Source: a virus. From it: a DNA stretch of 64,000 nt. Shown in pieces: positions 17,918 to 58,692 of the stretch. Position 1 is the first letter of the stretch. The number at the start of each line of letters is the position of its first letter. A model generated the notes under the pieces. The model worked only from the letters and a program-made list of their open reading frames with translations, was not told the origin of the DNA and did no database searches. The position numbers were made by a program, and so were the translations under genes. The DNA is taken from positions 62,001-126,000 of IMG/VR virus record IMGVR_UViG_3300042691_047309; one strand, given 5' to 3'.

Positions 17918-18548
17918 ATTTCACTATTTCAATTCCAGTAGTTTCTAAAAAATTAATACCCGACCCATCTCTATATTCATCTACATAGACCAATCTTTTT
18001 ATTCCTGATTGTAGAATCAGTTTTGAACAATCTTTACATGGTGAGTGAGTTAAATAAAGAGTAGCTCCATCGCAAGATTGACCTCTACGGGCACATTTAA
18101 GTATAGCGTTTGCTTCACCATGAATTACATACCAATGTGTGGTATCAGGATCCAATTCACATTGATTATCAAATCCAGTTGGTGTTCCGTTATATCCATC
18201 TGATATAATCATATCATCTTTTACAATTAAGGCCCCAACTTTCATTCTTGAGCAATGAGAAAGATTAGACCACTCTTTAGCCATATTTAAATATGTTTTA
18301 TCATATTTTTGTTGCTTGTATCTGGATTTAATCTCATCGATAAAATTTGTGATTTTATCAGGACCATCTATATTCTTTTCTTTACCGGACTTATCTTTGA
18401 TTATCATTCTTATCGCATTTTTATCTGATTTATCAAACACTTCCATTTTAATAACCATAGGACTCATATCATCATAAATATAATCCTGTGATTCAATCAT
18501 TTCTTTTGTAATTCCTTTTAAATATACAGTATCAAAATCACTCTTCAT
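17910..18548 (-). CDS. Deoxycytidylate deaminase
   Basis: A 212-aa cytidine/dCMP deaminase family protein. The catalytic zinc site is HGEANAIL and SPCKDCSKLI, preceded by SRMKVGALIVKDDMIISDGYNGTP. It would convert dCMP to dUMP for dTTP synthesis, as T4 CD does. The first 75 residues precede the deaminase core and are unrecognised. The start overlaps the small gene at 18538 by 11 bp. Confidence 0.88.
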   Translation of the reverse strand: MKSDFDTVYLKGITKEMIESQDYIYDDMSPMVIKMEVFDKSDKNAIRMIIKDKSGKEKNIDGPDKITNFIDEIKSRYKQQKYDKTYLNMAKEWSNLSHCSRMKVGALIVKDDMIISDGYNGTPTGFDNQCELDPDTTHWYVIHGEANAILKCARRGQSCDGATLYLTHSPCKDCSKLILQSGIKRLVYVDEYRDGSGINFLETTGIEIVKYG

Positions 18549-18693
18549 CCCTAAATAACTTATTTATTTTGGATTTTCTATATTCTGATTTCGTATCAAA
18601 TCCTAAAATATTTTTTAATGCCCAATTTACATCTAAATGACCTGTGATCATTAACTCTTTTAAAAGTTCATATTTTTTGTTTTTATCAGACAT
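18538..18693 (-). CDS. 51-aa protein with the shared C-terminal motif
   Basis: The frame from ATG 18693 to TGA 18538 encodes MSDKNKKYELLKELMITGHL and 31 further residues, ending YRKSKINKLFRDEE. The end matches the recurring R-x-x-K-[IL]-N-x-[IL] tail described in the findings. It overlaps the dCMP deaminase start by 11 bp and the 18686 gene end by 8 bp, as expected of a packed operon. Confidence 0.6.
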   Translation of the reverse strand: MSDKNKKYELLKELMITGHLDVNWALKNILGFDTKSEYRKSKINKLFRDEE

Positions 18694-18862
18694 TAAATAA
18701 TCTTTTGATTTTTTTCTTTCTAATCTTTGGTCTATCTATTTTATAGATAATGTCAGTAATAGTTGAATTGACTGTTATATAATTACCAGAACCTCTGGTT
18801 GATTTATTATTTATCAACGCAGAGGCTTGTAGTAATTTATCAACTAAACTTTTATTAGTCAT
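18686..18862 (-). CDS. 58-aa protein with the shared C-terminal motif
   Basis: I take ATG 18862 as start because it overlaps the NusG-like gene's stop by 8 bp. The product begins MTNKSLVDKLLQAS and ends RPKIRKKKIKRLFNV, fitting the R-x-x-K-I-x-x-L-F tail. Middle part is Thr/Ser-rich. Function unknown. Confidence 0.55.
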   Translation of the reverse strand: MTNKSLVDKLLQASALINNKSTRGSGNYITVNSTITDIIYKIDRPKIRKKKIKRLFNV

Positions 18863-19409
18863 TGTGTTTTTCAATCTGAAGAGCACTTAACTCAACAAGA
18901 TTTTTTCTACCAAAAATCATAACTTCAACCTTGACTTTTTGGTCTTTAATACTTTCTACTGTTCCTGTAAATCCTGTAAAAGGACCATCAAGAACTTTAA
19001 CAGATTCACCGGAAATGAAGTGGTCAAATTGTTCGGCTACTACTTCTTTTTCTTTTTGAATACCAAGCATTCTATCAACTTCTCCTTGTGTTAGAGACTG
19101 AATAGTTTTATCTCGTGATGTAAGAAATCCTGTAGCACCATTTACACCTTTTAAATAATATTTCAATTCACCAACAGCATTTGTTTCAACAAAAATATAT
19201 CCTGGATACATTACTTTTTCACGTTGAACTTTTTTACCATTCTTTAAATGAAAAGATTTTTCAGTTGGAACAATTACTCTACCTATTTTACCCATTAAGT
19301 CACCAGTTTCACCATCTTTGACAATTCTTTCCGAAACAGATCTTTCTCTGTTTGATTGCGCTCTAACGATATACCATTTCATTGTTTTAACATTTTCTAA
19401 AGTTTCCAT
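18855..19409 (-). CDS. NusG-like transcription factor
   Basis: A 184-aa protein with an NGN domain (MKWYIVRAQSNRERSVSERI, GRVIVPTEKS, VMYPGYIFVET) and a C-terminal KOW domain (SGESVKVLDGPFTGFTGTVESI), the order and length of bacterial NusG. It would bind RNA polymerase and affect elongation or termination. A phage copy may redirect host RNA polymerase. Translation may begin at the internal Met at 19382, since WYIVRA is normally very near the start. Confidence 0.9.
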   Translation of the reverse strand: METLENVKTMKWYIVRAQSNRERSVSERIVKDGETGDLMGKIGRVIVPTEKSFHLKNGKKVQREKVMYPGYIFVETNAVGELKYYLKGVNGATGFLTSRDKTIQSLTQGEVDRMLGIQKEKEVVAEQFDHFISGESVKVLDGPFTGFTGTVESIKDQKVKVEVMIFGRKNLVELSALQIEKHND

Positions 19410-19420
19410 ATTAATTTAAT

Positions 19421-19819
19421 TTATTGTTTTTCTAATTTTTTATAATAATTTAATTCTTCTTTTACAAAATCAAAGTGATTTTCTATTAAATAGTCTAAGT
19501 CAATATCTTTAATTTTTAATCTAAGTAAAAGAAGTTTGTAGTCATTATCGGGTATAAGTGGCTTTTCCTTTTCACTTTTTGACCAAATCCAACTAGGATA
19601 AGGTTTTGATTTCATAAAGTGATACCATAAATCTAAACCCGATACTTTATCTATTGCTTTAAGATTCAAAAGTTGAGCTTTATCAGGAAATCTTTTAGAA
19701 AGAATTCGGTTAATGATGAAAAAAAATTCACTTTTTTGTTCATCACTAACCCACTTCCAATTTTCTTTCTCTTTAAACATCGCATTTGTTAATGCAAGTA
19801 AGTGATTTTCAATTATCAT
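19421..19819 (-). CDS. Possible clamp-loader small-subunit-like protein
   Basis: A 132-aa protein with FFFIINRILSKRFPDKAQLLN, LDLWYHFMKSKPYPSWIWSK and a C-terminal LDYLIENHFDFVKEELNYY. The NRxLS and later layout recall gp62-like clamp-loader small subunits of T4-like phages, but it is shorter and I am not certain. Overlaps the FEN nuclease stop by 4 bp (ATGA), so it lies in a replication operon. Confidence 0.5.
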   Translation of the reverse strand: MIIENHLLALTNAMFKEKENWKWVSDEQKSEFFFIINRILSKRFPDKAQLLNLKAIDKVSGLDLWYHFMKSKPYPSWIWSKSEKEKPLIPDNDYKLLLLRLKIKDIDLDYLIENHFDFVKEELNYYKKLEKQ

Positions 19820-20787
19820 TTTCCTTCAAATTTGCTTTCCATTTTATCAATAATTTCTTGAGGTAAGTTTTCTAATCTCAAATCTATTAATTTAACATTA
19901 CCTTGAATGTTTTCTACAATAGTTTCAATTTGTGTTTTACTCAATTTCTTTTTCTCACAAATCAAATCAGCTATATTCTCATATAGATCAGGATCTTCTA
20001 AACTAATCTCACCAAATTCTAAAAGATAATTATCATAGATTGTTTTGGCACCTTTGGCTCCAATTCCTCTCTTTTTGCCGTTTTTAACTTGAGACCAAAC
20101 AGATCCAATATTATCAGATTGGTCTCCTGAAATTATCTTAACCACTAATGATTCCATAGGATCAATTTCAACAATTTCATATTTAGTTAAGAATCTATTA
20201 AGTAAAGTCAAATAATCAGAGTTATCATTTAGATTAAAAATATCATCATTTGGTAAATTTTTAACTTCTGAGATAAAAATCTGATAATTTTTTGGCATAA
20301 AAAGTTTTTCTTTATTATACATTTCATTTGTCATAATATTAATCCAAAGTGGATCGATTGAATACCCAACAATTTGTTTGATATCATGGTCATTAGAAAC
20401 AATAATTGTAGATCGACCTTCTTCATTTGCTTTAGTTGTTAAAAATGAAATCCAATCATCTCCTTCAACATGAGGTGCTTCTAAAATTTTCACTAATCCA
20501 GACATTGATTGTTTGAATTCATCATAAGCATTATAAACAAAAGACCAATCAATATCATTATCTTTTTTTCGATTAGCTTTATAAGCTTTTGTTAGTTGTT
20601 TTCTCCAAGATTTTTCTTTAGAGTCTGATACAAGATAAACATTAGCAAACGGATACCACTTTCTATAGTTGTTAATCGCGTTTTCTAATGATTTATGTAG
20701 TGCGCCGTACAGTAAGTTGTTTTTGTGAAGTGTGAAAACCAATCTTGACAAGATATAATTTCCATCTATTACTAAGTCACATATCAT
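19816..20787 (-). CDS. rnh: T4 RNase H-type 5'-3' exonuclease (FEN family)
   Basis: A 323-aa FEN/PIN-type nuclease. Acidic metal-site motifs: LVIDGNYIL at the start, EAPHVEGDDWIS, IIVSNDHDIKQIV and IISGDQSDNIGS, followed by a helix-hairpin-helix-like GIGAKGAKTIYDNY. It removes RNA primers and flaps during lagging-strand replication, as T4 RNase H does. First gene of a set with the clamp-loader-like and NusG-like genes. Confidence 0.88.
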   Translation of the reverse strand: MICDLVIDGNYILSRLVFTLHKNNLLYGALHKSLENAINNYRKWYPFANVYLVSDSKEKSWRKQLTKAYKANRKKDNDIDWSFVYNAYDEFKQSMSGLVKILEAPHVEGDDWISFLTTKANEEGRSTIIVSNDHDIKQIVGYSIDPLWINIMTNEMYNKEKLFMPKNYQIFISEVKNLPNDDIFNLNDNSDYLTLLNRFLTKYEIVEIDPMESLVVKIISGDQSDNIGSVWSQVKNGKKRGIGAKGAKTIYDNYLLEFGEISLEDPDLYENIADLICEKKKLSKTQIETIVENIQGNVKLIDLRLENLPQEIIDKMESKFEGK

Positions 20788-20828
20788 TAAAATATAATTA
20801 TTTTTTAATTATATCTATTAATCTGGAC

Positions 20829-21197
20829 TTAGTTTATAATATCATCTATCTTTTTGTCCCTTTCTAACCACTTAAACTTTTTCTCTAAATAGTCTTCAAT
20901 TTCAGATGGAAAGAAAGTATTATTTTTATGTAATTCATCTAAAAAAGGTTTTCCTAAAACATTAAGTATAGCAATATTAGTTATTAAATTCGAATCTCTA
21001 TAGTGACCGTTATTTGACACTTCAACATCTTCACCTAAAATATGATAAGTTATTTTTGAAGCTCCTATTGTAAATGATGAACCATTATAAACCAAACTTG
21101 TCCCAGAAACCGTAGTCGATGTATTTGAGGATGAGCCAGTAATTGCAAAGATACCGGGAGGTATTTGTAGATTGGTTTGTTTTTTAGCCATATCCAT
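20829..21197 (-). CDS. Hypothetical protein with the shared C-terminal motif
   Basis: A 122-aa protein. Residues 10-50 are Ser/Thr/Gly-rich (ITGSSSNTSTTVSGTSL), residues 55-122 are helical, ending WLERDKKIDDIIN, which fits the shared tail. ATGs at 21197 and 21191 are both possible. No family recognised. Confidence 0.6.
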   Translation of the reverse strand: MDMAKKQTNLQIPPGIFAITGSSSNTSTTVSGTSLVYNGSSFTIGASKITYHILGEDVEVSNNGHYRDSNLITNIAILNVLGKPFLDELHKNNTFFPSEIEDYLEKKFKWLERDKKIDDIIN

Positions 21198-21220
21198 TCT
21201 ATCTAAAATCAGATAAAAGT

Positions 21221-22825
21221 TTATTTAACTATTGTGTGTGGTGCTGACCAATCCGACTCTGATTTAGCAAATCTGATAATTGATGATACTATGTGATTTC
21301 TATCATCTTCTGGTAGTCTTTCTACAAAATCTGTAAAGAAAATAGCTTGAAGTCTTGAGTTTATAGCAGAATCTTTTTCTTTTGTGAGATCGTTATAGAA
21401 TATAGTCTTCAATTCAGCTTTAGTAAATTCATAGTTTTGATCCATATACTCTTTAAGATTTTCTAAGTCTTTTGATTTTCTAATATATGTCAGTATAGTA
21501 TATGGGTTTATTGAGACATCTTTTCCAGTTATTTGTATTGTGAAGTTTTTATTTAATTCAAATTTGATAAGAGCTCCTGCTTTTCCAGACATATGCTCTG
21601 CTTTTGAAGAACCTTTAACCTCTAAAGAAATGGCTTGCTCTAATCCAGTCACAAAAGTCCTAACATCAATTTCTCCAGCTCCTTTAATTTGTGGCTCAAC
21701 TTTTTCCTCAGCCCCGTCTTCAATTAATTGACCAAGCAAAGCATAGTCATAATAAATCTTAGTTCCAGTTGTATTAGGACTTGCTTTGTATTTATTATAC
21801 ATATGTACGAATTTAGAAGCAGTGTCTGTATTAACTGGGAAAAATCCTGATTGTCTTTTAGTTTGTTGTTTTAGTGATACACCAACAACTCCAGTTGCAT
21901 TCTTAATTGATTCTCCTAAAAAGTCATTTAGTTCCTGTAAAGAAGTCACACCTAATCTTTTAAATCTTTTTTCAACAGAATTTGTACTTAAATCTCTACA
22001 AGTCCATTCATACCCTTTAAATACTAACCAACAATCCGATGGATTCCATTTTGCAATATTTATTCTATCTGGAAGTGATGTGAATGATGAAATACCTTTT
22101 GATATTTTTTCTTTTTCTTCTTTAAGTGTATTTAAGAAAAAAGTATTAACAGAATATTTTGAAGAGTTTTTATAAATTCCAGATAAATCACTGATACTGT
22201 CTTTATAAACATCAATAATCGACTGACATTGTTTTAACATACCTTCAACAATATTTACATTATCTTCTTCGTATTTTTCAAATTTTTGTTTAATATCATT
22301 TCTGTATTTACCAATAGTCGCTTTTCTATAACCATCAATACCTTGACCAAATTCAATTGGTACTCTACCATCGTGATTGTAACATTCGATTGCAATTCCA
22401 TAATCTTCCCACAATTTGAAAGTAAAAAGTATAACAAATACAGTTTCTCTAAAGTAATCACCTCTGGCTGATGCTCCTTTTCTATCTAACTGTTTAATCA
22501 TAACAGTTTTGATTCCTTTTTTAGCTACAGCAAATGGAAATTTTAATGAAGTTGTTTTATAGATAAATAATTCAGACTTAGGATCTTTGATGTCATTTAT
22601 TTTAAGCACATCTGAAAAAGTAAGTATCTTTAAAGAAGCAGGTCTTATATTGATGACTTTTTCTTCTAAATTAGGTAATTCTTCAGTATAGAATAACTGA
22701 AGTTTTGTTGTTACTTCAACATCATCTTCTTTAACTTCGGTCTTACCATCTCTTGAAAGAGCATAGTTTATATTCCTTTTATTATCATCTAAAGTAGCCT
22801 CAAATAACGACTTAATATACTTCAT
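21221..22825 (-). CDS. Large packaged-type protein, function unknown
   Basis: A 534-aa protein starting MKYIKSLFEATLDDNKR, a targeting-like N-terminus, with a late motif 5 nt upstream. Visible landmarks are RGDYFRETVFVILFTFKLWED, KWNPSDCWLVFKG and GVVGVSLKQQTKRQ, a set I associate with uncharacterised virion-type proteins of marine T4-like phages. A nucleic-acid role is possible but no catalytic motif is clear. Confidence 0.65.
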   Translation of the reverse strand: MKYIKSLFEATLDDNKRNINYALSRDGKTEVKEDDVEVTTKLQLFYTEELPNLEEKVINIRPASLKILTFSDVLKINDIKDPKSELFIYKTTSLKFPFAVAKKGIKTVMIKQLDRKGASARGDYFRETVFVILFTFKLWEDYGIAIECYNHDGRVPIEFGQGIDGYRKATIGKYRNDIKQKFEKYEEDNVNIVEGMLKQCQSIIDVYKDSISDLSGIYKNSSKYSVNTFFLNTLKEEKEKISKGISSFTSLPDRINIAKWNPSDCWLVFKGYEWTCRDLSTNSVEKRFKRLGVTSLQELNDFLGESIKNATGVVGVSLKQQTKRQSGFFPVNTDTASKFVHMYNKYKASPNTTGTKIYYDYALLGQLIEDGAEEKVEPQIKGAGEIDVRTFVTGLEQAISLEVKGSSKAEHMSGKAGALIKFELNKNFTIQITGKDVSINPYTILTYIRKSKDLENLKEYMDQNYEFTKAELKTIFYNDLTKEKDSAINSRLQAIFFTDFVERLPEDDRNHIVSSIIRFAKSESDWSAPHTIVK

Positions 22826-22830
22826 ATAGA

Positions 22831-22841
22831 GTATATATTAA
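22831..22841 (-). promoter_or_regulatory. Putative late promoter TTAATATATAC
   Basis: Minus-strand motif ending 5 nt before ATG 22825. Confidence 0.5.
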
Positions 22842-22848
22842 TTTTTAC

Positions 22849-23370
22849 TTACAAAATCTTATTTATTTGGATTTCTCTCCAAAGAGTTCTAAATTCTTCT
22901 CTTATTTCAAAATCATAATCGTAGCAATCCTTTTGTTGATAATAATCGTAATAGCTTTTCTGAATTTTCTTATTTATCTCTTCGTACTTTGGTTTTACAA
23001 GATACCAAGCATCATTTTTCTCTGACCAATCTATTAGATTTTTAATTAAGTCAAAGTTTATTTTTTTAAATCCATTAAGGAATTTAGGATTAGCCCACGA
23101 ATAAAAGTAACTTCTTATTATCTCATTCTTGAAATCAAAAAATCCAGATGGATTGGTAGATAGTGGTGTAGTGAAGTAAAACTCTTCACAACTCCTCATA
23201 AGTATTTTAGTTAATTCTATTACTTTTTTAGGTAATTTATTTTCTAAAATAATATGAGGCACATCATCTATTAAAATACAAATTGGAATCTTTTGAATTT
23301 TTTTGAAATATATTATTCCTTTTGAAAAGGACCAATCTTCATTACTCGGTAGTATTTTATTTAAGTCCAT
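22849..23370 (-). CDS. Hypothetical protein with the shared C-terminal motif
   Basis: A 173-aa protein rich in aromatic residues and Lys, ending RTLWREIQINKIL, a variant of the shared tail with Q in place of K. No family recognised. It overlaps the stop of the 23357 gene by 14 bp and is probably cotranscribed with it. Confidence 0.6.
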   Translation of the reverse strand: MDLNKILPSNEDWSFSKGIIYFKKIQKIPICILIDDVPHIILENKLPKKVIELTKILMRSCEEFYFTTPLSTNPSGFFDFKNEIIRSYFYSWANPKFLNGFKKINFDLIKNLIDWSEKNDAWYLVKPKYEEINKKIQKSYYDYYQQKDCYDYDFEIREEFRTLWREIQINKIL

Positions 23371-23700: not shown

Positions 23701-23973
23701 TTATTTTAGAATTTCAGAAATCTTCTCATCTCTATCTATTGAATAAGTATCTATAATGAAAATTGGACTACCATCTATTCTTGACCTACTTATAAACTTA
23801 GCCCAGTATTTCTGACCAAAGTATTTTTTATCAATAAGGTTTTTTCTTACCGTTTCATCTTCAGAACTCCAATCGTATCGATGATTTAAGTCATCAATAA
23901 TTTCAAAAGATTTGTCGAAACAAATAAGTTGGTCTTTGGATTCTAAACCAATTTTTTTTATTAGAATTGTCAT
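23701..23973 (-). CDS. Hypothetical protein with the shared C-terminal motif
   Basis: Start taken at ATG 23973, which overlaps the topoisomerase stop as ATGA; the 24018 start would run 45 nt into that gene. The 90-aa product begins MTILIKKIGLESKDQL and ends SIDRDEKISEILK, a clear shared tail. The middle (YFGQKYWAKFISRSRIDGSP) is basic. Function unknown. Confidence 0.6.
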   Translation of the reverse strand: MTILIKKIGLESKDQLICFDKSFEIIDDLNHRYDWSSEDETVRKNLIDKKYFGQKYWAKFISRSRIDGSPIFIIDTYSIDRDEKISEILK

Positions 23974-30962: not shown

Positions 30963-31340
30963 ATGGTTACAAAAGAAATTAAACAATTTGTTATTACTCA
31001 GATGAAAGAGGCTGATTGGGAGGTTGAGAAATTCGATGGCTTAAATGAATACAAATCTAAACATATCAACATACAACAAGACACTACTATTAGTCAAAAG
31101 GTTACTTTTCTAATAAAGATACCCAATGGTCATGGTAGCTATCAAAATCTTAAATTAAACCGTAAGGAGTTAGGAATAAATTATCTACGATACAGATTTT
31201 TATTAAAAGGTGTAAAGAGGTCTTGTAAATTAGTTGATAATCGTAGAAGAGAAGCTGAGATTTCTCGCAATTGGAAAAAATTCTTAGAAAAAAATAAAGA
31301 TCTTAATAGGGATAATAAAATAAACCAAATTATAGATTAA
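30963..31340 (+). CDS. Hypothetical protein with the shared C-terminal motif
   Basis: A 125-aa basic protein starting MVTKEIKQFVITQMKEADW and ending LNRDNKINQIID, a clear shared tail. Middle part has HGSYQNLKLNRKELG. Its stop overlaps the ATG of the RlaP-like gene by 1 nt, indicating coupling. No family recognised. Confidence 0.6.
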   Translation: MVTKEIKQFVITQMKEADWEVEKFDGLNEYKSKHINIQQDTTISQKVTFLIKIPNGHGSYQNLKLNRKELGINYLRYRFLLKGVKRSCKLVDNRRREAEISRNWKKFLEKNKDLNRDNKINQIID

Positions 31341-33078: not shown

Positions 33079-33391
33079 CGTTAGTCCCTGGAAACACATA
33101 ACCACTACTCATAAAATTGAACATCACACACTTGATGAAATATTCACCATTCTAATTGAAAAGGATGGTGAATATTCTTTTATTGTTGAGGAATGTCAAA
33201 AGGTGTTTGATGTTTCACAAATGCCAATTTATATTAAAGAAGATTGGATAAAATATAATAAAAAATCCGTATCTTTGTCATTACTTAATGAACAGATTAA
33301 AAAATTGACAAATGATTTTGATCAATTTGAAGAAGAGTTGAATTTGTTAAAATCGTTAAGAAGAGATTTAATAATTAAAGGAATAATATGA
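33062..33391 (+). CDS. Hypothetical protein
   Basis: A 109-aa protein starting MKREINVSPWKHITTTHK. The C-terminal half is a coiled coil (LNEQIKKLTNDFDQFEEELN). It ends RDLIIKGII, at best a distant variant of the shared tail. Overlaps its neighbours by 17 and 4 bp. Confidence 0.55.
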   Translation: MKREINVSPWKHITTTHKIEHHTLDEIFTILIEKDGEYSFIVEECQKVFDVSQMPIYIKEDWIKYNKKSVSLSLLNEQIKKLTNDFDQFEEELNLLKSLRRDLIIKGII

Positions 33392-44042: not shown

Positions 44043-44516
44043 ATGGAATCTTTAGATAGGGAGTATAATCAAATTGTTAATCTTACTAAATTCAATGTTA
44101 ATTTCAGTAAGTATGTGGATAGCTGCGATCTTTTAAAACAAAGTCCTGACTATATTCTTGAGAAATATAATCACTGGATTGGTTTTGGACCAACAGTTGA
44201 AAAGAAGTTATATACACCAGGTGATATGACAGATTTTTTCAATAAATATTGTAAAATTTGGAAAATAGACACAGAGAGTTACCATAAATTAAAAAATATA
44301 CTGATGTATTTACATTATACTCAAAATTTGAACATCTTAAGGATGTCTGAAAAATTTGAAGAATATATCGGACCAATGACGATGATATCAGATACCTCAG
44401 ATAAACCAGGATTACATCATAAAACAAATGATTTCGTTAATAATATTTTAGAAGGAAATAAAAACAATATTAAAGTTATTTTAAGAAATATGAAAATTGA
44501 TAATATAGTGCGATGA
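44043..44516 (+). CDS. Hypothetical protein with the shared C-terminal motif
   Basis: A 157-aa protein starting MESLDREYNQIVNLTKFN. Ends VILRNMKIDNIVR, fitting the shared tail. Stop overlaps the next ATG by 4 bp. No family recognised. Confidence 0.6.
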   Translation: MESLDREYNQIVNLTKFNVNFSKYVDSCDLLKQSPDYILEKYNHWIGFGPTVEKKLYTPGDMTDFFNKYCKIWKIDTESYHKLKNILMYLHYTQNLNILRMSEKFEEYIGPMTMISDTSDKPGLHHKTNDFVNNILEGNKNNIKVILRNMKIDNIVR

Positions 44517-44884
44517 AATATAAAGACAAATCATTTTTAAAGTATCAAGAAAAACAACGTGATGGTGAAGTTGGGTATTGGTCTAATAGGTCTGAAAGAC
44601 AAATTCGTAGAGAAAGAGAACACAGATTTTCAACTTTTTATCAAAAGTTTCTTATTGGAAAAATTGACAAGTATTGGTGGAAAAACCTAAGAGATTCTGA
44701 TAAAGAAAAAATTATATCACTTCACTATATACAAGTAGATGCTATTTCATCGAAAGATTTAGATAGATGGTATTCTGATCCTGTATTTGATACTTGGTCT
44801 GAGTGGTTTGATTATATCAAGACAACTTTTAAACCAAATAAAATATCATTAAGAGAGGATAAACTCAAAGTTTTGGGTATATAA
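44513..44884 (+). CDS. Hypothetical protein with the shared C-terminal motif
   Basis: A 123-aa basic, aromatic-rich protein (EVGYWSNRSERQIRRERE near residue 20). Ends SLREDKLKVLGI, a shared-tail variant. Coupled to the previous gene. Confidence 0.6.
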   Translation: MKYKDKSFLKYQEKQRDGEVGYWSNRSERQIRREREHRFSTFYQKFLIGKIDKYWWKNLRDSDKEKIISLHYIQVDAISSKDLDRWYSDPVFDTWSEWFDYIKTTFKPNKISLREDKLKVLGI

Positions 44885-45603: not shown

Positions 45604-46025
45604 AAGATAGAATTATAGAAATCGTTAAGACACTAACAGAAGTGACTAATTCAAATATTTTGAAGTGGAACGAAGATGATCCTAAGTCAGTATCAAGAAA
45701 TTATAGAAGAAAAATGATTTCCAATGGAGAGGATGGTACAAAGTATGAAATGGAAATAAAATTCATACTTAAAAATGATAATTGGCAAATTGAAGAGGAT
45801 GCAAGCCTTTGGTTAAGAAATAAATTACTACCAGATGGTATATTTTATATAACAAGTTTTAAATCAGACGGTGAGACTTCACATCTTAGAGATTCAATTT
45901 TAAATAATTTTTGTAAAGATATGAATCCGTCTATAGAAGATATTGAAAATACATTGAGCGATATCGCTCGTGGAATTAGTATCTCTGAGTTCAGAGAAGG
46001 AAGACTAAATAAAATTTTAAACTAA
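45597..46025 (+). CDS. Hypothetical protein with the shared C-terminal motif
   Basis: A 142-aa protein. C-terminus EFREGRLNKILN fits the shared tail. The body (WQIEEDASLWLRNKLLPDG) is unrecognised. Overlaps the preceding gene by 7 bp. Confidence 0.6.
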   Translation: MLKDRIIEIVKTLTEVTNSNILKWNEDDPKSVSRNYRRKMISNGEDGTKYEMEIKFILKNDNWQIEEDASLWLRNKLLPDGIFYITSFKSDGETSHLRDSILNNFCKDMNPSIEDIENTLSDIARGISISEFREGRLNKILN

Positions 46026-47413: not shown

Positions 47414-47696
47414 AACACCTAAAATAGTAAGTGTTAAATGGTACACAAAAGGAGAAATGGATCCAAGTTATAACGGTACTGATGTAGATAGTTTTGTAAT
47501 TATTCCAGGTGTTACACACTACCAACATATTTACTCTTCTCAAAAATATTTAATCTTTGATAGTAAAACAAGTTATATGGCAGTTGAATTTACATCAGAG
47601 GCTGATTTAGAAAGATACTTTATACAACTAATGAGGGAAATTAAACTTAATCAAATCACAAATGTTAATGTTGATGTTGATAAAAAAACAAAGTAA
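47397..47696 (+). CDS. Hypothetical protein with shared motif near C-terminus
   Basis: A 99-aa protein overlapping the methyltransferase end by 17 bp. It contains LMREIKLNQITN near residue 80, the shared motif, but here about 11 further residues follow (ending VDKKTK). Confidence 0.55.
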   Translation: MLRITKTPKIVSVKWYTKGEMDPSYNGTDVDSFVIIPGVTHYQHIYSSQKYLIFDSKTSYMAVEFTSEADLERYFIQLMREIKLNQITNVNVDVDKKTK

Positions 47697-47701: not shown

Positions 47702-47938
47702 GTGAATATTTATTGCAAAAGAACAATGTTTAATCCAGATGATAATTCGGTGATATGTGCTAAAGGTAAAATATATCAAACCGTACCATCTTCTGAATTT
47801 GAAGCAAAAACAGGTTTGGTTTTTTGGGTTTCTTCTGAAATTGAAGAAAACATACCACTAACATTAAAACTTTATGATAAATATTTCACAACTATTGATG
47901 AAATGAGGAATAATAAAATAAACGAAATACTAAAATGA
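47702..47938 (+). CDS. Small hypothetical protein with the shared C-terminal motif
   Basis: A 78-aa frame that begins with GTG 47702 (NIYCKRTMFNPDD). A nearby ATG (47698) is in another frame and would stop after 11 codons. The internal Met at residue 9 is an alternative start. Contains CAKGKIYQTV and ends EMRNNKINEILK, an exemplary shared tail. Confidence 0.55.
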   Translation: MNIYCKRTMFNPDDNSVICAKGKIYQTVPSSEFEAKTGLVFWVSSEIEENIPLTLKLYDKYFTTIDEMRNNKINEILK

Positions 47939-48696
47939 AAATTGTAAAATATCTTTCTGATACTGAAATAATGAATTGGAATAATAGACTTGAGAATACA
48001 CCTTATATTGTTATTCCAAGATATCACACTCATTCATCTTTTCCTACAATAGTTTTTAAACAAAAAACAACAACTGGTTTAGGAAATTTTCTAAATGATC
48101 CACAATCAGAAGTAATAACACTGGATCCACATATGAAATTTCAGTTTTCATTTTCAGTTGCTAAAAATCGTGTAGATAATTTTTTTAATATATTCAACAA
48201 ATGGTTTTCTAAAATAGAAACCAAAACTTATTTTCAAGATAGAAGTAATCGAGAGAAAATAGATGATATAGAAGTATCTGATTCTATTATTAAATCAAAG
48301 AAGCAAATTGAACACAAAGTAAAAGAAAAAGAATATACTAAATTCATTTACTATTTTGAAGGACATCTTTCTTCAATTATGGCTTATGTGATGTTCTTAG
48401 AAGACTCTATTGATATTTTCTCTTCTATATGGGGATATGATGAGTCAGGATCAGAACACCTACTGACTAAATTTAATATTGGTGATTGTGTAACAAAAGT
48501 TGGTGACCAATCAGAAGATTATCTCATTTTAGATTTCGAGCCAATAAAAAGTGGTAAAGATTTTTCTTTAGATTATGAAATTTGTAAAATGATTACAAAA
48601 GGACAGATTATAAAATATGGAAATTCAGAAGTAGTCAAAGAAAAAGATATAACCTGGTCTCGTAATAATAGAATTGATGATATTTTAGATAATTGA
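47935..48696 (+). CDS. Hypothetical protein with the shared C-terminal motif
   Basis: A 253-aa protein starting MKIVKYLSDTEIMNWNNRL, ATG overlapping the previous stop (ATGA). Ends WSRNNRIDDILDN, which bridges the shared tail and the DUF6576-like IDDILDK motif. No other domain recognised. Confidence 0.6.
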   Translation: MKIVKYLSDTEIMNWNNRLENTPYIVIPRYHTHSSFPTIVFKQKTTTGLGNFLNDPQSEVITLDPHMKFQFSFSVAKNRVDNFFNIFNKWFSKIETKTYFQDRSNREKIDDIEVSDSIIKSKKQIEHKVKEKEYTKFIYYFEGHLSSIMAYVMFLEDSIDIFSSIWGYDESGSEHLLTKFNIGDCVTKVGDQSEDYLILDFEPIKSGKDFSLDYEICKMITKGQIIKYGNSEVVKEKDITWSRNNRIDDILDN

Positions 48697-48731: not shown

Positions 48732-49241
48732 ATGGATAAGTGGAGTAATCTACAATTTAAAGATTTTCTCGAAGGTGAAAGACTGAATTGTTATTGGTTC
48801 TGGTATAAAGGTAAAATCACAAGAAGAAAGAATTTAGATGGAGAAATTTACGAACAAAACCTTTCTGGTAAATGTGAATGGAATGGAATAAGATTGCAAA
48901 ATGGATTTAATCATTGTTTTAATATTTTAACTAATAAATATATGAGAGGATTAAAAGAAGGAAAATACAACGGTCAAACTAAAGCAGAGTTTGAAAAGAA
49001 CAAAGTTAGAGTTAGTGATATTTGGATAAAATCCGGTGCTGATATTGAGAAGGCTAAGTCTTTATCAACAACACAAGCAAATCGAATTACTGACGAGTGG
49101 AAGGCTCTAAATAGAGCTTTTGCTGCTAAAGAAATGGGTTACGAAGAAATATTTGAGATTTTCTTTCATCGTGCTTATGAATTAGGTTCAGTTTCTAAAT
49201 TAGAATACCGAGAATATAAATTAGATAAGCTTGGTATCTAA
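48732..49241 (+). CDS. Hypothetical protein with the shared C-terminal motif
   Basis: A 169-aa protein starting MDKWSNLQFKDFLEGERLN. Ends EYREYKLDKLGI. No family recognised. Its stop overlaps the next ATG by 1 nt. Confidence 0.6.
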   Translation: MDKWSNLQFKDFLEGERLNCYWFWYKGKITRRKNLDGEIYEQNLSGKCEWNGIRLQNGFNHCFNILTNKYMRGLKEGKYNGQTKAEFEKNKVRVSDIWIKSGADIEKAKSLSTTQANRITDEWKALNRAFAAKEMGYEEIFEIFFHRAYELGSVSKLEYREYKLDKLGI

Positions 49242-49528
49242 TGAAAATAATTAAAACTAAATTTCTTTGCAAGAATAGTAGTCAAACTGTTACGAAAGGA
49301 CTTCCTATGTATGTTAAAGATAGGTTTATTGAAGGAAAATGGTATGATGGTGAATATGAAGCCTGGAACTTCCATGATAGTTACAGACTAAATGGTGGAT
49401 GGCGTAGATACTGGGTTATAAATGAAAAAGGTGAAAAAGAAGAAATTCACAGAGCTCACATGAATGCAATTTTTGAAACAGATATAGAAAAGTTAAGAGA
49501 TAATAAAATAAATGAAATACTAAAATAA
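49241..49528 (+). CDS. Small hypothetical protein with the shared C-terminal motif
   Basis: A 95-aa protein with aromatic middle (YEAWNFHDSYRLNGGWRRYW) and end KLRDNKINEILK, nearly identical to the tail of the 47702 protein. The surrounding DNA of the two tails is also almost the same. Confidence 0.6.
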   Translation: MKIIKTKFLCKNSSQTVTKGLPMYVKDRFIEGKWYDGEYEAWNFHDSYRLNGGWRRYWVINEKGEKEEIHRAHMNAIFETDIEKLRDNKINEILK

Positions 49529-49529: not shown

Positions 49530-49928
49530 ATGAGCGAAGAAACAAAACAACTAAAAGTATCCAATGAGTTTGTTGATATTTTTAAAAACTTCAATGTTGT
49601 AAATAAAGTTGAAGAAATGAAAGCACTTTCTAAGAAAGAACTATATTTATTATTAACACTCTGCTTGGATAAGCACGATGATGAACAACCAACTGTTGTT
49701 TATAACTTTCAACCGTTTAGAGAACAAGTGATGGAGTTATTTGAAATTCAGGATGATAAAGAAACTCTCAATCCGGTTCTAAAAGAGCTTATTGAAGAAA
49801 GCGGTGATAAATACATTGAAACTGATAATATTGTTGATGAAACAGGAAATAAACTTCCAGAGCCTTTAACAAAAGAGGAAGTGAGAGATGTAAAAATTAA
49901 TATCATCAATAGTGATGATTCAAAATAA
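49530..49928 (+). CDS. Hypothetical acidic protein
   Basis: A 132-aa protein starting MSEETKQLKVSNEFVDIFKN. Mainly helical and acidic, no shared tail, no family recognised. Starts 1 nt after the previous stop. Confidence 0.55.
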   Translation: MSEETKQLKVSNEFVDIFKNFNVVNKVEEMKALSKKELYLLLTLCLDKHDDEQPTVVYNFQPFREQVMELFEIQDDKETLNPVLKELIEESGDKYIETDNIVDETGNKLPEPLTKEEVRDVKINIINSDDSK

Positions 49929-51204: not shown

Positions 51205-51591
51205 ATGAATATGGGGTTTACAAGATATTGGGAATTTGAGAGATTAAATAGTGAGAAGTTTAAAGAGTTCTCTAATATCTGTCAGTTACTTATAGATAAT
51301 ATGGATATTCCACTTGATGATGTCACCGTTAATGAAGCACAAGTAAGATTCAATGGAGTTGATGATGATGGTCATGAAACATTCAATTTCTCTTTAAATA
51401 AAGATGGATTTAACTTTTGTAAAACAGCTACTAAACCTTACGATGAAGTTGTGTATGGTTGTCTTTATATTGCTAAGTTAATATTCGAAGATAGTGTAAA
51501 GATAAATCAAGATTGTAAAGAAGACGAACCTTATGTAAAAAAAGTAATATCTATTCTAAGAGAAAATAAACTTAATCAACTATTAAAATAA
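51205..51591 (+). CDS. Hypothetical protein with the shared C-terminal motif
   Basis: A 128-aa protein starting MNMGFTRYWEFERLNSEKF. Ends ILRENKLNQLLK. A second in-frame ATG is at 51211. No family recognised. Confidence 0.6.
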   Translation: MNMGFTRYWEFERLNSEKFKEFSNICQLLIDNMDIPLDDVTVNEAQVRFNGVDDDGHETFNFSLNKDGFNFCKTATKPYDEVVYGCLYIAKLIFEDSVKINQDCKEDEPYVKKVISILRENKLNQLLK

Positions 51592-53612: not shown

Positions 53613-53615
53613 TCA

Positions 53616-53643: not shown

Positions 53644-53654
53644 ATTTTAATAAA

Positions 53655-53662: not shown

Positions 53663-53666
53663 TAAT

Positions 53667-54233
53667 ATGAAAGTAATTTTTTTGGATTTTGATGGTGTTA
53701 TGTGTCTCTCTGAGCAATGGGGTGGACGAGCTAAAAAAATGCTAAAGTTTCAAAGAGAATTTCCGGGTTCAACTGAAGATGATATGCCAGCTTGGATTAA
53801 GCTAGATAATTTTGATTTTAAGGCAACTAAAGTTCTTAACTCTATTTTATTACATCACGATGTTGAGATAGTTTGCTCTTCAGATTGGAAATTATTTGCT
53901 ACTTTAGATCAACTTCAAGATATGTTTGATAAATACGGTGTGATTAAATCACCAATAGATGTCACACCAACTCTTGTTAAGTATGAGTCTAAATCTCAAT
54001 TCACACAAAGTGAATTAGAGCAATGGAGAGTTAAAGAAATTAAAACGTGGTTAGATTTACATCCAGAAGTAACACACTGGGTTGCTGTTGATGATATGGA
54101 CTTAGGTGAGAAGTTTGGTCCTATTTCTGGAAATTCCAATGGTGGTCTAACTAACTTCATATTAACTAAGCAGTATATTGGAATTAAACAATCCGGAATA
54201 AAAGAAAAAATCATTAAGTTCTTAAATGATTAA
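53667..54233 (+). CDS. HAD-family protein like the HAD domain of RNA-repair (Swiss army knife) proteins
   Basis: A 188-aa protein with HAD motif I FLDFDGVMCL, motif II-like VCSSDWKLFAT and motif IV-like WVAVDDMDLGE. The small, cap-poor layout recalls the HAD_SAK domain found with RNA-repair enzymes. It would remove a phosphate; an RNA end is one possible substrate. Possible partner of the CCA-adding and RlaP-like enzymes. Confidence 0.75.
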   Translation: MKVIFLDFDGVMCLSEQWGGRAKKMLKFQREFPGSTEDDMPAWIKLDNFDFKATKVLNSILLHHDVEIVCSSDWKLFATLDQLQDMFDKYGVIKSPIDVTPTLVKYESKSQFTQSELEQWRVKEIKTWLDLHPEVTHWVAVDDMDLGEKFGPISGNSNGGLTNFILTKQYIGIKQSGIKEKIIKFLND

Positions 54234-54723
54234 TGTTTTAGAAATGGACATGAGTATTGAATACAAGTTCGCGTGGAATGTAGCTGCTCGAGCTTGTTTC
54301 AGTATTTTCTATATCCTACCAGACTGTATGTTACTTTATAGACATCAAGTGTCGGAACCATATATCTGGACTAAATTCGGATGTAATCACCCTGATAAAA
54401 TAGATTTAGTAAAACTAGATGGTAAAAATCTAATGTTATTTCATGTTGATGTTTATAAAGAAAAAACTCATAAATTTAAAGACCTAATTGATTATTGTCA
54501 GTCTAATAACATTGATATCTGGATTCCTTTTCCACTTAAAAACCTTTGGAGAACTGAAGAGCCTCATCTTCAGATTATGAAAGATATACTAGATAATTAT
54601 CAATACAGCACTTACGATTTAACTGGAATGAACTACAGGAGTGAAAATGAAATAAGTAGATTGGTTAAAGAAAAAACGAAACCTATATTAAGAGATATAA
54701 AATTAAGAAACTTATTTGATTAA
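54226..54723 (+). CDS. Hypothetical protein with the shared C-terminal motif
   Basis: A 165-aa protein overlapping the HAD gene by 8 bp. Contains FSIFYILPDCMLLYRHQ and WIPFPLKNLW. Ends ILRDIKLRNLFD. The next gene is convergent, so this tail cannot be a ribosome-binding region for a downstream gene. Confidence 0.6.
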   Translation: MINVLEMDMSIEYKFAWNVAARACFSIFYILPDCMLLYRHQVSEPYIWTKFGCNHPDKIDLVKLDGKNLMLFHVDVYKEKTHKFKDLIDYCQSNNIDIWIPFPLKNLWRTEEPHLQIMKDILDNYQYSTYDLTGMNYRSENEISRLVKEKTKPILRDIKLRNLFD

Positions 54724-54974
54724 TATTCTATTTTCTCAACATCATCTAAATCAACATAGTATTCATTACCATCGATTTCTACTGTTATTAAACCATCTTC
54801 ATCTATATCGACCGGAGTAATTGGATCTTTTGGATCATTATCAGGATATTCTTTAACAATTGTAGAATAGATAACTCCTCTTTTCTTAATACATTTTATT
54901 ATATCATCAATTGTGATAAGAGTTCCTTCTTCATTATTCTGTTTGAAATCCTCAAATAATTTTATCCATTTCAT
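54720..54974 (-). CDS. Small packaged-type protein
   Basis: An 84-aa acidic protein starting MKWIKLFEDFKQNNEEG, targeting-like. No domain recognised. Late promoter 3 nt upstream. Confidence 0.6.
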   Translation of the reverse strand: MKWIKLFEDFKQNNEEGTLITIDDIIKCIKKRGVIYSTIVKEYPDNDPKDPITPVDIDEDGLITVEIDGNEYYVDLDDVEKIEY

Positions 54975-54977
54975 AAA

Positions 54978-55003
54978 TTATATATTAAAAACTTAATATA
55001 TAA
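54978..55003. promoter_or_regulatory. Back-to-back late promoters forming a perfect inverted repeat
   Basis: TTATATATTAA (54978-54988) and TTAATATATAA (54993-55003) are perfect reverse complements separated by AAAC. Each copy lies 3-5 nt upstream of an ATG, one for 54974 minus and one for 55009 plus. This is the clearest view of the late consensus. Confidence 0.65.
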
Positions 55004-55008
55004 AAAGT

Positions 55009-55821
55009 ATGAAGTATATTAAAAGATTCAACGAAGAGCTTAAACCAGAAACTTATATTAGTGCTGGTTATAGATTAAAAAATTTACCAGGTGGTGGAAA
55101 AAGAAGATCTTCACCTCTTATTGATTATGGTTTTGGGAAAAAGTATGGTTTCTATAAAATGCACTGGGCTAATGGTTCATCTCTTTTAGGAAAAGATTTA
55201 ACATTTACTAATCTAATATGTGAGAGTTACTTTGGGAGACCTGACTCTTCAAAAATTGAGACTTTTAGGTATTCAGCAGAAGATGCTGTGGAACTGTGGA
55301 AACAAGGTAATCATCCTCTTTGTATGACTTTTAATTTTGTTTTTCAATCTACTGAAGAAACAAAAGATAAATTAAATAGTAGTAGTGAACTTAATACCAA
55401 CTGTCCAATGTTCTCATTTGAGATTTGGTTTAGTAACTGGGAAGAAGGTTTAGATTCTTATAATTGGGATTATGATACTGAAGAGCCAATGACTGGAGAT
55501 ACCGTAGTTGATTTAAATGGTATGTATAAATGGACTAATGAACTTACAATCTATAAGAAGAAACCTGTTAAAATGTATTACTCAAAATCATATCCTTTCT
55601 GTGGTATATTTTCAGATAGAGCTTCTGCTTTGAAATTCAAAAAAGAATTAAACAGTTTAATGGATCCACATAAAGAAAAAGTTATGGAACTTTTAAGCTG
55701 TGTTAATGCTTCTGCTGACGACATAGAAGATTTTGAAGATAGAATCAATAAAATAAGTTTAAATCATCTTTTCTCAGTTGATGAAAAAACAACCAATTGG
55801 TTCACATACAATGAATTGTAA
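55009..55821 (+). CDS. Packaged-type protein, first of a tandem paralogous family
   Basis: A 270-aa protein starting MKYIKRFNEELKPETYISAG. The first 30 residues (FNEELKPxTYxSAxxKL) and the end region (ASALKFKKELNSL) are shared with the next three genes. The middle is beta-rich and aromatic. A late-produced internal capsid protein is likely from the N-terminus. Confidence 0.65.
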   Translation: MKYIKRFNEELKPETYISAGYRLKNLPGGGKRRSSPLIDYGFGKKYGFYKMHWANGSSLLGKDLTFTNLICESYFGRPDSSKIETFRYSAEDAVELWKQGNHPLCMTFNFVFQSTEETKDKLNSSSELNTNCPMFSFEIWFSNWEEGLDSYNWDYDTEEPMTGDTVVDLNGMYKWTNELTIYKKKPVKMYYSKSYPFCGIFSDRASALKFKKELNSLMDPHKEKVMELLSCVNASADDIEDFEDRINKISLNHLFSVDEKTTNWFTYNEL

Positions 55822-55834
55822 ATAAATTAATAAT

Positions 55835-56560
55835 ATGAAACACTTAAAGAAATTTAACGAAGAACTTAGACCACAGACTTATATGTCTGCTGCTAGAAAA
55901 TTAGATAAATTAGGTCACCACGATAGAGCAAATGCTTTAAAAGACTGGGCTAAAGAAACTGAGAAAAAAGAAGAAATGATTAAGTGGCAAGACCGCATAC
56001 AAGATTATGCTCAGTTTGGAACATTTAAATTGACTATAAAAAATCCAGAAACTAATGAAACATTAACTGGTGATTTTCATTTAGATGTTAATTTTGATGA
56101 TTTATCATTTAGTGATGAGCCTGAAAGTGGTATAACTTTCTTCTTAGGTTTAATTCCAACTTCTGAAGATTTAATCTATCAGTATATGGAACTTTGTCCA
56201 GATTATGATTTCGGAAACGGTTTCTTCTGGGGTAAAATCTTTAATTTACAATATGAATTAGGAGATACTGTTGTATTTACTAAGTGGAATATGTGGGACT
56301 ATGATGATGAAATGAATGGTAAAATAAATTTTGCTGACAGAGCATCTGCTAACAAGTTCAAGAATTTAATTATACAAATATTTAGTAATCCACAATTAGG
56401 TTATCCATCTGGATATACCGACGCTGATGACTTATATGAAAAATTAACTAATACTATCTTAGCAGAGAACTCATTCTCTTCTGATTATGGATTTAAATTA
56501 GAAGATGCTGCTGAATACATGAGAACAATTAGTCCAAATTTACTTTCTTCTACACTATGA
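55835..56560 (+). CDS. Packaged-type protein, second of the tandem family
   Basis: A 241-aa paralogue starting MKHLKKFNEELRPQTYMSAA, then LDKLGHHDRANALKDWA, and a RASANKFKNLI stretch near residue 170 that matches its neighbours. No visible own promoter. Confidence 0.65.
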   Translation: MKHLKKFNEELRPQTYMSAARKLDKLGHHDRANALKDWAKETEKKEEMIKWQDRIQDYAQFGTFKLTIKNPETNETLTGDFHLDVNFDDLSFSDEPESGITFFLGLIPTSEDLIYQYMELCPDYDFGNGFFWGKIFNLQYELGDTVVFTKWNMWDYDDEMNGKINFADRASANKFKNLIIQIFSNPQLGYPSGYTDADDLYEKLTNTILAENSFSSDYGFKLEDAAEYMRTISPNLLSSTL

Positions 56561-57417
56561 GATACTTAAAAAGATTTAATGAAGAGTTAAAAGCATCTAC
56601 TTACAAAAAAGCAGGTGAGAAATTCACTCAGATGGGTCACAAAAGAAGAGGATCTGAATTATTAGATTATGCAACTCAAGTTGAATTAAAAGAAAAATAT
56701 CAAAAATTAAGACAGGCTCAGGATGAAAATAAGGAGTATGGTTTATTTGATATTACGATGACAAGAGGTTATGGGTCAAATAAGAAAGATGTATTTTCTG
56801 GTAAATTTTATCTACAAATGTGTTTAGAATCTGATTGGTTCAAAGACCAATTATGGGATTGGTTTTATGAAGGTATGGATTGGCATATGGGAATTGCTAT
56901 GGAGTTTGCCATTATACCAGCTGATGACGAAACACTTAGAATGTTGGAAACAAGTGAAGACGGAGATATAGTGTATTTTAGAAATAATACTATGTGGGGA
57001 GATGACTATAGATACTGGACAAATAGACTTTGGCTTACACTCTGTGATAAAAATGCAGTTCCTCTTTATATAGCAGGTGCTGGTGGATTTGAAGATAGAG
57101 ATTCTTTTACATTCCATTTTAATTCAAGATCAGAAGCTATGAAATTTAGAAACTTATTGGCTAATACATTAGAAGGAAAATCTGATTGGGGTTCTTATAA
57201 TGGTAGAACGATTTCTGACCAATTAAAATCAACAATTATTATGGATGAAGAAGACTGGAGATCAAAACTAATGGATAAGTTTTTACCGGGTAGAGAAGAT
57301 GAATATGATATTAATAATCCAGATACTTGGCCAAAAAATACTTTTACAGAAGATACTTACAAAGGAGCTATCGAGGCGGTTAAGAGAATGTCAGTAAATG
57401 GTTTATATAGAGATTAA
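56557..57417 (+). CDS. Packaged-type protein, third of the tandem family
   Basis: A 286-aa paralogue starting MRYLKRFNEELKASTYKKAG, with FTQMGHKRRGSELLDYATQ, SRSEAMKFRNLLANT and end AVKRMSVNGLYRD. ATG overlaps the previous stop by 4 bp. Confidence 0.65.
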   Translation: MRYLKRFNEELKASTYKKAGEKFTQMGHKRRGSELLDYATQVELKEKYQKLRQAQDENKEYGLFDITMTRGYGSNKKDVFSGKFYLQMCLESDWFKDQLWDWFYEGMDWHMGIAMEFAIIPADDETLRMLETSEDGDIVYFRNNTMWGDDYRYWTNRLWLTLCDKNAVPLYIAGAGGFEDRDSFTFHFNSRSEAMKFRNLLANTLEGKSDWGSYNGRTISDQLKSTIIMDEEDWRSKLMDKFLPGREDEYDINNPDTWPKNTFTEDTYKGAIEAVKRMSVNGLYRD

Positions 57418-57420
57418 GAG

Positions 57421-58692
57421 ATGAAGTATTTAAAAAGATATGAAGAAGCTGTCGGTGTTAGATTGAAATCAGAATTGAAATCAACAGTTGAAGATTTGCT
57501 TATTGATTTAAGAGATGATGAATTTGAAACTAAAGTATCTGAAATAGATTATCATTCTCAAAAAGTAAAGGTCAAAGTCAATATACAAAGAGATAGAGAA
57601 TTTACTTATGAAGATATAAAACCTCAAATTGAATCTATTTGGTCTTATTTAAATGAAGAAGGATTTACAATTGAAAACTTCACTAGTGTAGAAGACTGGG
57701 AAAACTTTGAAGAACCAGAAGACGAATTTACAATTCATCAAAAAGATAAAGGTTATGTGTGGTCCACTGGTGAAGATGGTGAGATTAAATCTATTGACAA
57801 AGAATTTCAAAGAAGACCAAATGTCATGATTTCACCAATATATAATCCAGAAAACTTTGATAGAATTCAAAAGTGGATATTTGAGATTTCATTTACTAAA
57901 GATAAAATTGTAGTTGATAGAAAGAGAGGTCATCTTACAACTAATGAAGAGTTAAAACCACAAACATATATAAGTGCTGCTGATAAACTAACTAAGTTAG
58001 GTCATATTAAAAGACCTGAGCAATTAAAATCTTGGGCTGAAACTATTAAGCAAAGAGAAATAGATACTAAACACAAAATGGCTTTAGAAGAAGCAAAAAA
58101 ATTAGGACAATTTCAATTAAGATTTGTTGGTAGAGGAAGTGAAATAAGGTTTGCAAACTGTTACATTCAACTTTATTTTAATTCCGATTATTACCTAAGT
58201 GAGATGTTACCAGAGTGGTTAGATGGTGAGAGAAACACACTTTGGTCACAGTTTATGTTTGGGATTCATCCGGTTTCTTCAGAAGATTTAGAAGTTTTAA
58301 ATTGGTTTTCTGGTGATATTAAAGGTTATACAAATAGAGCGAATGGTATAATCTGGTTACAAGATGTTTATATCAATCTGACAAATCAAAACTGCAAAGA
58401 TGAAGATGGTGTGACTTTACCTATGACCCCTTCAGGTGTAGTTTCAATCGAATGCTCTGAATTTAGTGAAGTTTATTTTGCAAATAGAAGAGAAGCTATT
58501 AAGTTTAGAAATTTATTAGTCGATCTTTTCGAGGGAGATATAGATTACATACAACCGAATGGTAAAGACTTTAAAGAAGATATAATTGAAACTTGGTGTG
58601 ATCATGAAGAAAGACCAGTTGAACTTTCAGAGTTAGAAGATTTTATTGATAAACTTAGAGTAATGAGATTAAATTCATTATATAGAGATTAA
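57421..58692 (+). CDS. Packaged-type protein, fourth of the family, apparently a fusion
   Basis: A 423-aa protein. It starts MKYLKRYEEAVGVRLKSEL with a separate N-terminal domain of about 170 residues, then at about residue 177 NEELKPQTYISAADKLTKLG restarts the family sequence, including a remnant of the targeting peptide. The C-terminal part aligns with the other members (RREAIKFRNLLVDL, end KLRVMRLNSLYRD). Looks like a fusion of two packaged-protein genes. Confidence 0.65.
   Translation: MKYLKRYEEAVGVRLKSELKSTVEDLLIDLRDDEFETKVSEIDYHSQKVKVKVNIQRDREFTYEDIKPQIESIWSYLNEEGFTIENFTSVEDWENFEEPEDEFTIHQKDKGYVWSTGEDGEIKSIDKEFQRRPNVMISPIYNPENFDRIQKWIFEISFTKDKIVVDRKRGHLTTNEELKPQTYISAADKLTKLGHIKRPEQLKSWAETIKQREIDTKHKMALEEAKKLGQFQLRFVGRGSEIRFANCYIQLYFNSDYYLSEMLPEWLDGERNTLWSQFMFGIHPVSSEDLEVLNWFSGDIKGYTNRANGIIWLQDVYINLTNQNCKDEDGVTLPMTPSGVVSIECSEFSEVYFANRREAIKFRNLLVDLFEGDIDYIQPNGKDFKEDIIETWCDHEERPVELSELEDFIDKLRVMRLNSLYRD

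Follow-up and report, generated by a model that had tools for sequence, protein, structure and literature searches.

We analysed a window of 64,000 nucleotides from the IMG/VR virus record IMGVR_UViG_3300042691_047309 (positions 62,001 to 126,000), which belongs to a viral contig of 175,894 bp (here G000). Many unrelated proteins encoded in the window carry a short peptide at or near the C-terminus, here called the tag, with the core K-x-[ED]-x-R-D-x-K-[IL]-N-x-[IL]-[LG]. The PrkA of the window has 86% identity to that of LR745206.1 (634,780 bp) and LR756502.1 (642,428 bp), and 65% identity to that of LR756504.1 (636,363 bp). By length, we match these three sequences and LR756501.1 (735,411 bp) to the 634-, 642-, 636- and 735-kb genomes of the Mahaphage clade, for which Bacteroidetes hosts were predicted (Al-Shayeb et al. 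2020, PMC7162821).

A preliminary description had named 17 tagged C-termini in the window. Translation of each found all 17 where it had placed them, in coordinate and strand, including a copy set back from the end of the protein terminating at 47696 but still within the last ~20 residues. The slightly widened pattern R-x-x-[KRI]-[IL]-x-x-[ILV] matches 16 of the 17; the exception is the protein ending at 22849 (REIQINKIL), which has Q at the fourth place. The list needed revision at its edges: two further tagged tails, ending at 33391 and 49928, had been missed, and the copy ending at 58692 is doubtful. Within six residues of the end, 17 of the 84 window genes have the motif, compared with 0.16 expected from the internal rate (binomial p ~1e-29). 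The window pattern was picked post hoc, so independent genomes weigh more than this p-value.

The cores on the minus strand are RKSKINKLF (18553..18579, in a 51-aa protein encoded at 18541-18693), RKKKIKRLF (18695..18721, 66 aa, 18689-18886), RDKKIDDII (20835..20861, 122 aa, kept in the LR745206 and LR756502 orthologues), REIQINKIL (22852..22878, 173 aa, flush with the C-terminus) and RDEKISEIL (23707..23733, 105 aa). Those on the plus strand begin with RDNKINQII (31308..31334, 125 aa) and the newly found RDLIIKGII (33362..33388, 109 aa), which is flush with the end and has the counterpart RELIIKGII in a related contig, L166. A denser series follows: RNMKIDNIV (44484..44510, 157 aa), the variant REDKLKVLG(I) ending in LGI (44852..44878, 123 aa), REGRLNKIL (45993..46019, 142 aa, kept in homologues), REIKLNQIT (47634..47660, 99 aa, 12 residues before the end and kept in homologues), RNNKINEIL (47906..47932, 78 aa), RNNRIDDIL (48661..48687, 253 aa, with the family tail SR[NT]xRIDxIL in most homologues), a second LGI variant, REYKLDKLG(I) (49209..49235, 169 aa, strongly kept in homologues), RDNKINEIL (49496..49522, 95 aa) and the second newly found copy, RDVKINIIN (49884..49910, 132 aa, six residues before the end and kept in homologues). 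The last two are RENKLNQLL (51559..51585, 128 aa) and RDIKLRNLF (54691..54717, 165 aa), the latter with a convergent gene next to it. The doubtful copy is the tag-like RVMRLNSLY (58657..58683, plus strand) in the tail RVMRLNSLYRD of a 423-aa protein. It belongs to a paralogous family (window 55009-58692, several copies per phage) with the C-terminal [IL]-N-x-[IL]-[YF]-[RK]-[DN], present in all paralogues as far as [RK] and usually with K in place of the invariant R of the tag. The 51-aa mini-gene follows a NusG-like gene both in the window (18541-19409, where the tagged 66-aa gene lies between them) and in LR745206.1 (485539-486200); its product is scarcely more than a tag.

Genes were called in the related genomes, and a profile of the tail was built and searched. 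It finds tagged proteins at 19/199 in G000, 111/748 in LR745206, 94/717 in LR756502 and 76/691 in LR756504, a frequency of about one in seven to ten proteins in this phage group. Across the first four data sets, 217 of 1,558 proteins are tagged (3-5 expected), bearing out the earlier suggestion that the motif concentrates at C-termini. The possibility that shuffled AT-rich tails would do as well was answered in the negative: no protein in these data sets is tagged after shuffling of its last 22 residues, and 72 AT-rich viral contigs outside the clade contain 3-4 tags in ~1,257 genes (~0.3%). Control genomes searched with the same profile gave 0/464 (LR756511), 0/220 (Sphingomonas phage PAU), 0/194 (Tenacibaculum phage PTm1, 180 kb) and 1/220 (Prevotella phage Lak-A1, 250 kb). 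We also enumerated all three-position tail patterns, without using the motif of the preliminary description. The top pattern in G000, LR745206, LR756502 and LR756504 is R-x3-[ILVM]-x2-[ILVM] with close variants (z 15-37), and nothing comparable appears in LR756511, PAU, PTm1 or Lak-A1.

In the DNA itself, a degenerate pattern encoding R-D-x-K-h-x-x-h-h-x-stop has 5 matches in G000, 12 in LR745206 and 10 in LR756502, and the reversed pattern has none. Fifteen IMG/VR contigs have the same tag-dense neighbourhood, with 5-14 tagged genes out of 19-40, and an IMG/VR scan with the DNA pattern returned 35 stretches with at least two tags, some on contigs already counted. One copy of the tag is present in a relative with 47% GC; the tagged genomes have 26-32% GC. 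A protein family of the tag cluster (alignment A6) was sought in bacterial genomes and none was found. The tag is real and clade-wide, and apparently undescribed: as the preliminary description had supposed, a literature search on phage C-terminal motifs gave nothing relevant.

The logo of the tag reads T/S/D(-5) K(-4) S/Q(-3) E(-2) I/L(-1) R(0) D/E/N(1) x K(3) I/L(4) N/D/K(5) x I/L(7) L/G/I(8), and TKSEIRDKKINEILK is an example in the form used by LR745206. The core is followed by 0-13 residues, most often 2-3, and LGI is the ending of many copies. Terminal and internal copies score alike, and N-terminal copies also occur. In LR745206 and LR756502, internal tags lie in inserted segments of a UvsW-like and a DinG-like helicase, segments that are absent from the LR756504 homologues. 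The tag is further found on an acyl-carrier-like protein, on pieces of capsid protein and on an extension that the orthologue is without. The bodies are unrelated, as first described: 299 tagged proteins fall into 238 families, and the 111 of LR745206 into 109. AlphaFold gave two different confident bodies, for the 142-aa and the 253-aa window proteins, and in both models the tag is detached at low confidence (pLDDT <50; residues 126-142 of the smaller protein are unplaced). Foldseek matched neither modelled body to a PDB entry at E <= 0.001.

The signal is at the protein level, not in the DNA, in agreement with the preliminary description. The conserved R, K, D, I and L are encoded in line with genome usage, and the next gene is convergent for 24/111 tagged genes in LR745206, 15/94 in LR756502 and 18/76 in LR756504. 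Many other tagged genes overlap the start of the next gene. The tail might also have been lost in homologues, yet it is kept in 463 of 608 homologous pairs. In pairs whose bodies are 40-60% identical, identity is 76-78% at the five core positions of the tag and 48-54%, like the body, at the x positions.

With a median of 116 aa in LR745206, tagged proteins are small; they are also poorly conserved and nearly without family matches. Searches of 110 of them with Pfam, PHROGs, NCBIfam and PADLOC found almost nothing, with 6 Pfam families matched as opposed to 26 for 110 size-matched untagged proteins. Adjacent tagged genes are 2-3 times as frequent as random, and some tagged neighbours are paralogues, chiefly in LR756504. 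Upstream k-mers in LR745206.1, LR756502.1 and LR756504.1 define two promoter classes, TAATATATA and TAnnTTTG. We read TAATATATA as a late element because it lies upstream of the portal gene in three genomes, of gp25 in two, and of the gp13, gp18 and uvsW homologues in LR756504. TAnnTTTG is probably early, since it is the -7 element of Bacteroidota type. Tagged genes are nearly absent from the late class: the exact late element precedes 2/111 in LR745206, 2/94 in LR756502 and 2/76 in LR756504, compared with 22%, 22% and 13% of other genes (p 1e-8, 2e-7 and 0.005). Among LR745206 genes having their own upstream gap, TAnnTTTG precedes 21 of 44 tagged genes versus 62 of 346 others (p 4e-5).

Several side observations concern proteins of these genomes. 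Two small proteins are related to the C-terminal and N-terminal parts of a gp23-like major capsid protein (LR745206.1 207176-207907 and 291407-291880; LR756502.1 near 234416 and 315772). The relative of the C-terminal part is tagged in both genomes, and the LR745206 relative of the N-terminal part has the tag in an inserted loop. Other small proteins share a GMGxVxxAQP-type segment with the N-terminus of the capsid protein (G000 170798; LR745206.1 93265 and 554783; LR756502.1 80293 and 542907). The late-promoter motif is found on four of these five and a common [DN]F-containing IKK tail on three, and the segment is perhaps a separate capsid-targeting signal. LR745206.1 and its relatives encode a proteostasis and translation set of 2-3 ClpP, an N-domain-less ClpC, SmpB, peptide deformylase, GrpE and HSP70, together with EF-G-like, bS21-like and aminoacyl-tRNA synthetase-like proteins recognised by eye. 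At LR745206.1 296085-296384 there is a tagged 99-aa protein that copies the UVR-like middle domain of the ClpC encoded by the same phage, two genes before the bS21-like gene. A tmRNA-encoded tag was considered and rejected, as an ARAGORN scan of G000, LR745206 and part of LR756502 gave no tmRNA. The window also contains a cellular trio in a phage, PrkA with DUF444 and SpoVR families (8988-15340); judging from size, 11007-12269 and 13847-15340 probably encode the DUF444 and SpoVR partners.

The tag differs between lineages as a set of dialects. R-D-x-K-[IL]-N-x-[IL]-[LG] is the dialect of G000, LR745206 and LR756502; in LR756504 the tag reads R-K-x-[KR]-I-[EN]-x-L; and in the 735-kb LR756501 it reads K-N-[WF]-[KR]-R-T-x-L-[IM]-D-x-[IM]-L, with 16 of 17 copies C-terminal and only two related pairs among the bodies. 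Homologues in LR756504 exist for 3 of the 111 tagged LR745206 proteins as opposed to 48 of 336 small untagged ones, so the code persists although its carriers are replaced. A single pair crosses dialects on the same body, with RNDKIDQIL in W01_361 and RKRRIQRFL in W03_504. LR756501.1 also has an independent second tag, D-P-Y-G-E-E-x-W, with 98 occurrences (loci L343-L369) that are C-terminal, near N-terminal or internal and number up to four per protein. The 67 bodies tested belong to 65 families and the codons vary. This second tag was absent from the other phages examined and has many copies on a few IMG/VR contigs; a literature search on DPYGEE gave nothing relevant.

We consider it fairly probable that the tag works as a short linear docking motif and joins early accessory proteins to one common hub, which co-evolves with it and is most likely phage-encoded. 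It is short and flexible, sits on unrelated bodies and has few (five) conserved positions, as generic motifs of this kind do. The coordinated change of dialect on many unrelated proteins points to a single partner that co-evolves with the tag in each phage lineage, and such a partner is most likely encoded by the phage. The tag is probably an amphipathic helix: R stands at 0, positions +4, +7 and often +8 hold small hydrophobic residues, K is frequent at -4 and +3, and the T/S/D at -5 has the look of a helix cap. It would be presented on a flexible C-terminus, sometimes on a surface loop or near the N-terminus, and dozens to more than 100 otherwise unrelated small non-late proteins would bind the same partner. 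The hub may thereby gather accessory proteins of a host-takeover type in one complex or place during early or middle infection. The preliminary description had left the partner among host machinery, a protease and a phage compartment; its docking tag stands as a protein-level feature, and the data favour a co-evolving, probably phage-encoded partner. First receptor candidates are 58 proteins that, by phylogenetic profile, the tagged genomes have in common and the controls, as sampled, lack.

Some results weigh against a phage-encoded hub for early proteins. When 114 shared proteins were scanned for charge switches that covary with dialect, no candidate partner rose above the noise of multiple testing. 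The TAnnTTTG enrichment of tagged genes is not repeated in LR756502 and becomes a slight depletion in LR756504; the host-type promoter is thus enriched in LR745206 only, and "early" is weaker than "not late". No cultured tagged phage was found.

Among other explanations, docking on host machinery (ribosome, RNA polymerase or a host protease), with dialects that reflect different Bacteroidota hosts, is unlikely in our view. The predicted Bacteroidetes hosts may differ between phages, tagged genes are not late, and the EF-G-like, bS21-like and NusG-like proteins, all recognised by eye, would fit interference with translation and transcription. Residue +1 nevertheless goes from D through K to T, a larger shift than is expected for a conserved host receptor, and Bacteroidota phages of the same composition (PAU, PTm1 and in part Lak-A1) lack the tag. 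Less likely again is proteolysis, in which the tag would be a degron or a handle for the phage's own ClpC-ClpP, clearing early proteins or letting small adaptors deliver targets. ClpP genes are present in LR745206, LR756502 and LR756504 and ClpC without its N-domain in all four genomes; a tagged gene immediately precedes ClpC in G000, LR745206, LR756502 and several contigs, another immediately follows a ClpP in LR745206 and LR756504, and the tagged 99-aa protein W01_331 resembles the UVR-like middle domain of ClpC (QKYEKAAELRDSERQL). N-domain-less ClpC is, however, found in ~70 other viral contigs without tags (~4 in 1,257 genes), and we rejected ClpC as the specific receptor because it is so widespread elsewhere without tags. 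Clp degrons at the C-terminus need a free end, whereas the core lies 0-13 residues from the end or is internal, and the tag occurs in helicases and capsid-protein relatives as well.

Loading of tagged proteins into the head, in the manner of the T4 capsid-targeting sequence or encapsulin cargo peptides, is very improbable. Large heads could hold many proteins, and two tag-bearing proteins are related to pieces of the major capsid protein; against this, the late promoter is avoided by tagged genes, the segment that late small proteins have in common with the major capsid protein is a different one, and no cleavage motif precedes the tag. We think it equally doubtful that the tagged proteins are diverged remnants of one family with an inherited tail. 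Paralogous neighbours in LR756504 and the adjacency of tagged genes fit common descent, but the two modelled bodies differ in the order of their secondary structure, and the tag also occurs on the acyl-carrier-like protein, capsid pieces, helicase loops and an extension missing in the orthologue. Least of all do we credit an artefact of nucleotide sequence or composition (an A-rich translation start, a promoter, a gene-end repeat or AT-rich chance). The low GC of the genomes and the overlaps with the next start would suit it, yet it is already refuted by the empty controls of the same composition, and the ordinary codons, selected core positions, convergent neighbours and the copy in the 47%-GC relative argue in the same direction.

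Beyond a phage-encoded docking hub, we tentatively propose a proteome-wide sorting code in the Mahaphage clade, a possibility to which we give somewhat less weight than to docking itself. The phage-encoded receptor would be a hub or compartment, new proteins would be enlisted by growing a ~12-residue tag, each lineage would have its own dialect, and the 735-kb phage would run two codes (RTxLIDxML and DPYGEExW). More speculatively, the tagged relatives of the capsid pieces and of the ClpC middle domain could be adaptors, with the body as a handle for one machine and the tail as a handle for the hub. A docking hub would tie together, by one testable physical interaction, 10-15% of the proteins encoded by the 634-642-kb phages, hardly any of them annotated, and offers a handle on the dark majority of their genes. 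The identity of the receptor would show the purpose of the gathering and could uncover a compartment of the phage, a takeover complex or a dedicated protease pathway. Built-in specificity controls come with the dialects, and the promoter classes TAATATATA and TAnnTTTG are usable for timing the genes of uncultured phages.

In kind the tag is a short linear docking motif. PIP and the clamp-binding peptides of bacteria and T4 are likewise short, are often C-terminal or in loops, occur on many unrelated proteins and have a hydrophobic-x-x-hydrophobic-hydrophobic spacing; SLDFL[FY] stands at or near the end of T4 gp43 and gp55. The tag resembles these peptides in shortness, terminal or loop placement, unrelated carriers and hydrophobic spacing, and differs in its invariant Arg, conserved Lys and aliphatic rather than aromatic end. 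The aromatic pair of PIP and Q-x-x-h-x-x-a-a were sought in the tag logo, which has aliphatic I/L at +7, L/G/I at +8 and no Gln. Clamp binding, which would put the tag on clamp clients such as DNA polymerase, clamp loader, helicase and primase, was rejected, with homologues of gp41, gp43, gp44, gp46, gp47, gp61 and UvsX untagged. Encapsulin cargo-loading peptides and T4 capsid-targeting sequences are another parallel, in which a single short peptide at a terminus directs unrelated proteins to the same assembly; the tag is unlike them in its non-late genes, its lack of a maturation cleavage site and its far more numerous carriers. It shares with Clp degrons and adaptor tags (ssrA, MuA-type C-motifs) a C-terminal peptide and the presence of an AAA+ protease in these phages, but it is not bound to a free C-terminus, and Clp-encoding phages outside the clade are without it. 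Poxvirus ankyrin proteins with a C-terminal F-box-like PRANC domain form a viral adaptor arsenal that shares a C-terminal handle for one machine; PRANC is a domain on homologous proteins, whereas the tag is a ~12-residue motif on unrelated ones. What is new here is the scale on which a virus uses such a motif, the existence of dialects and, in the 735-kb phage, a second tag.

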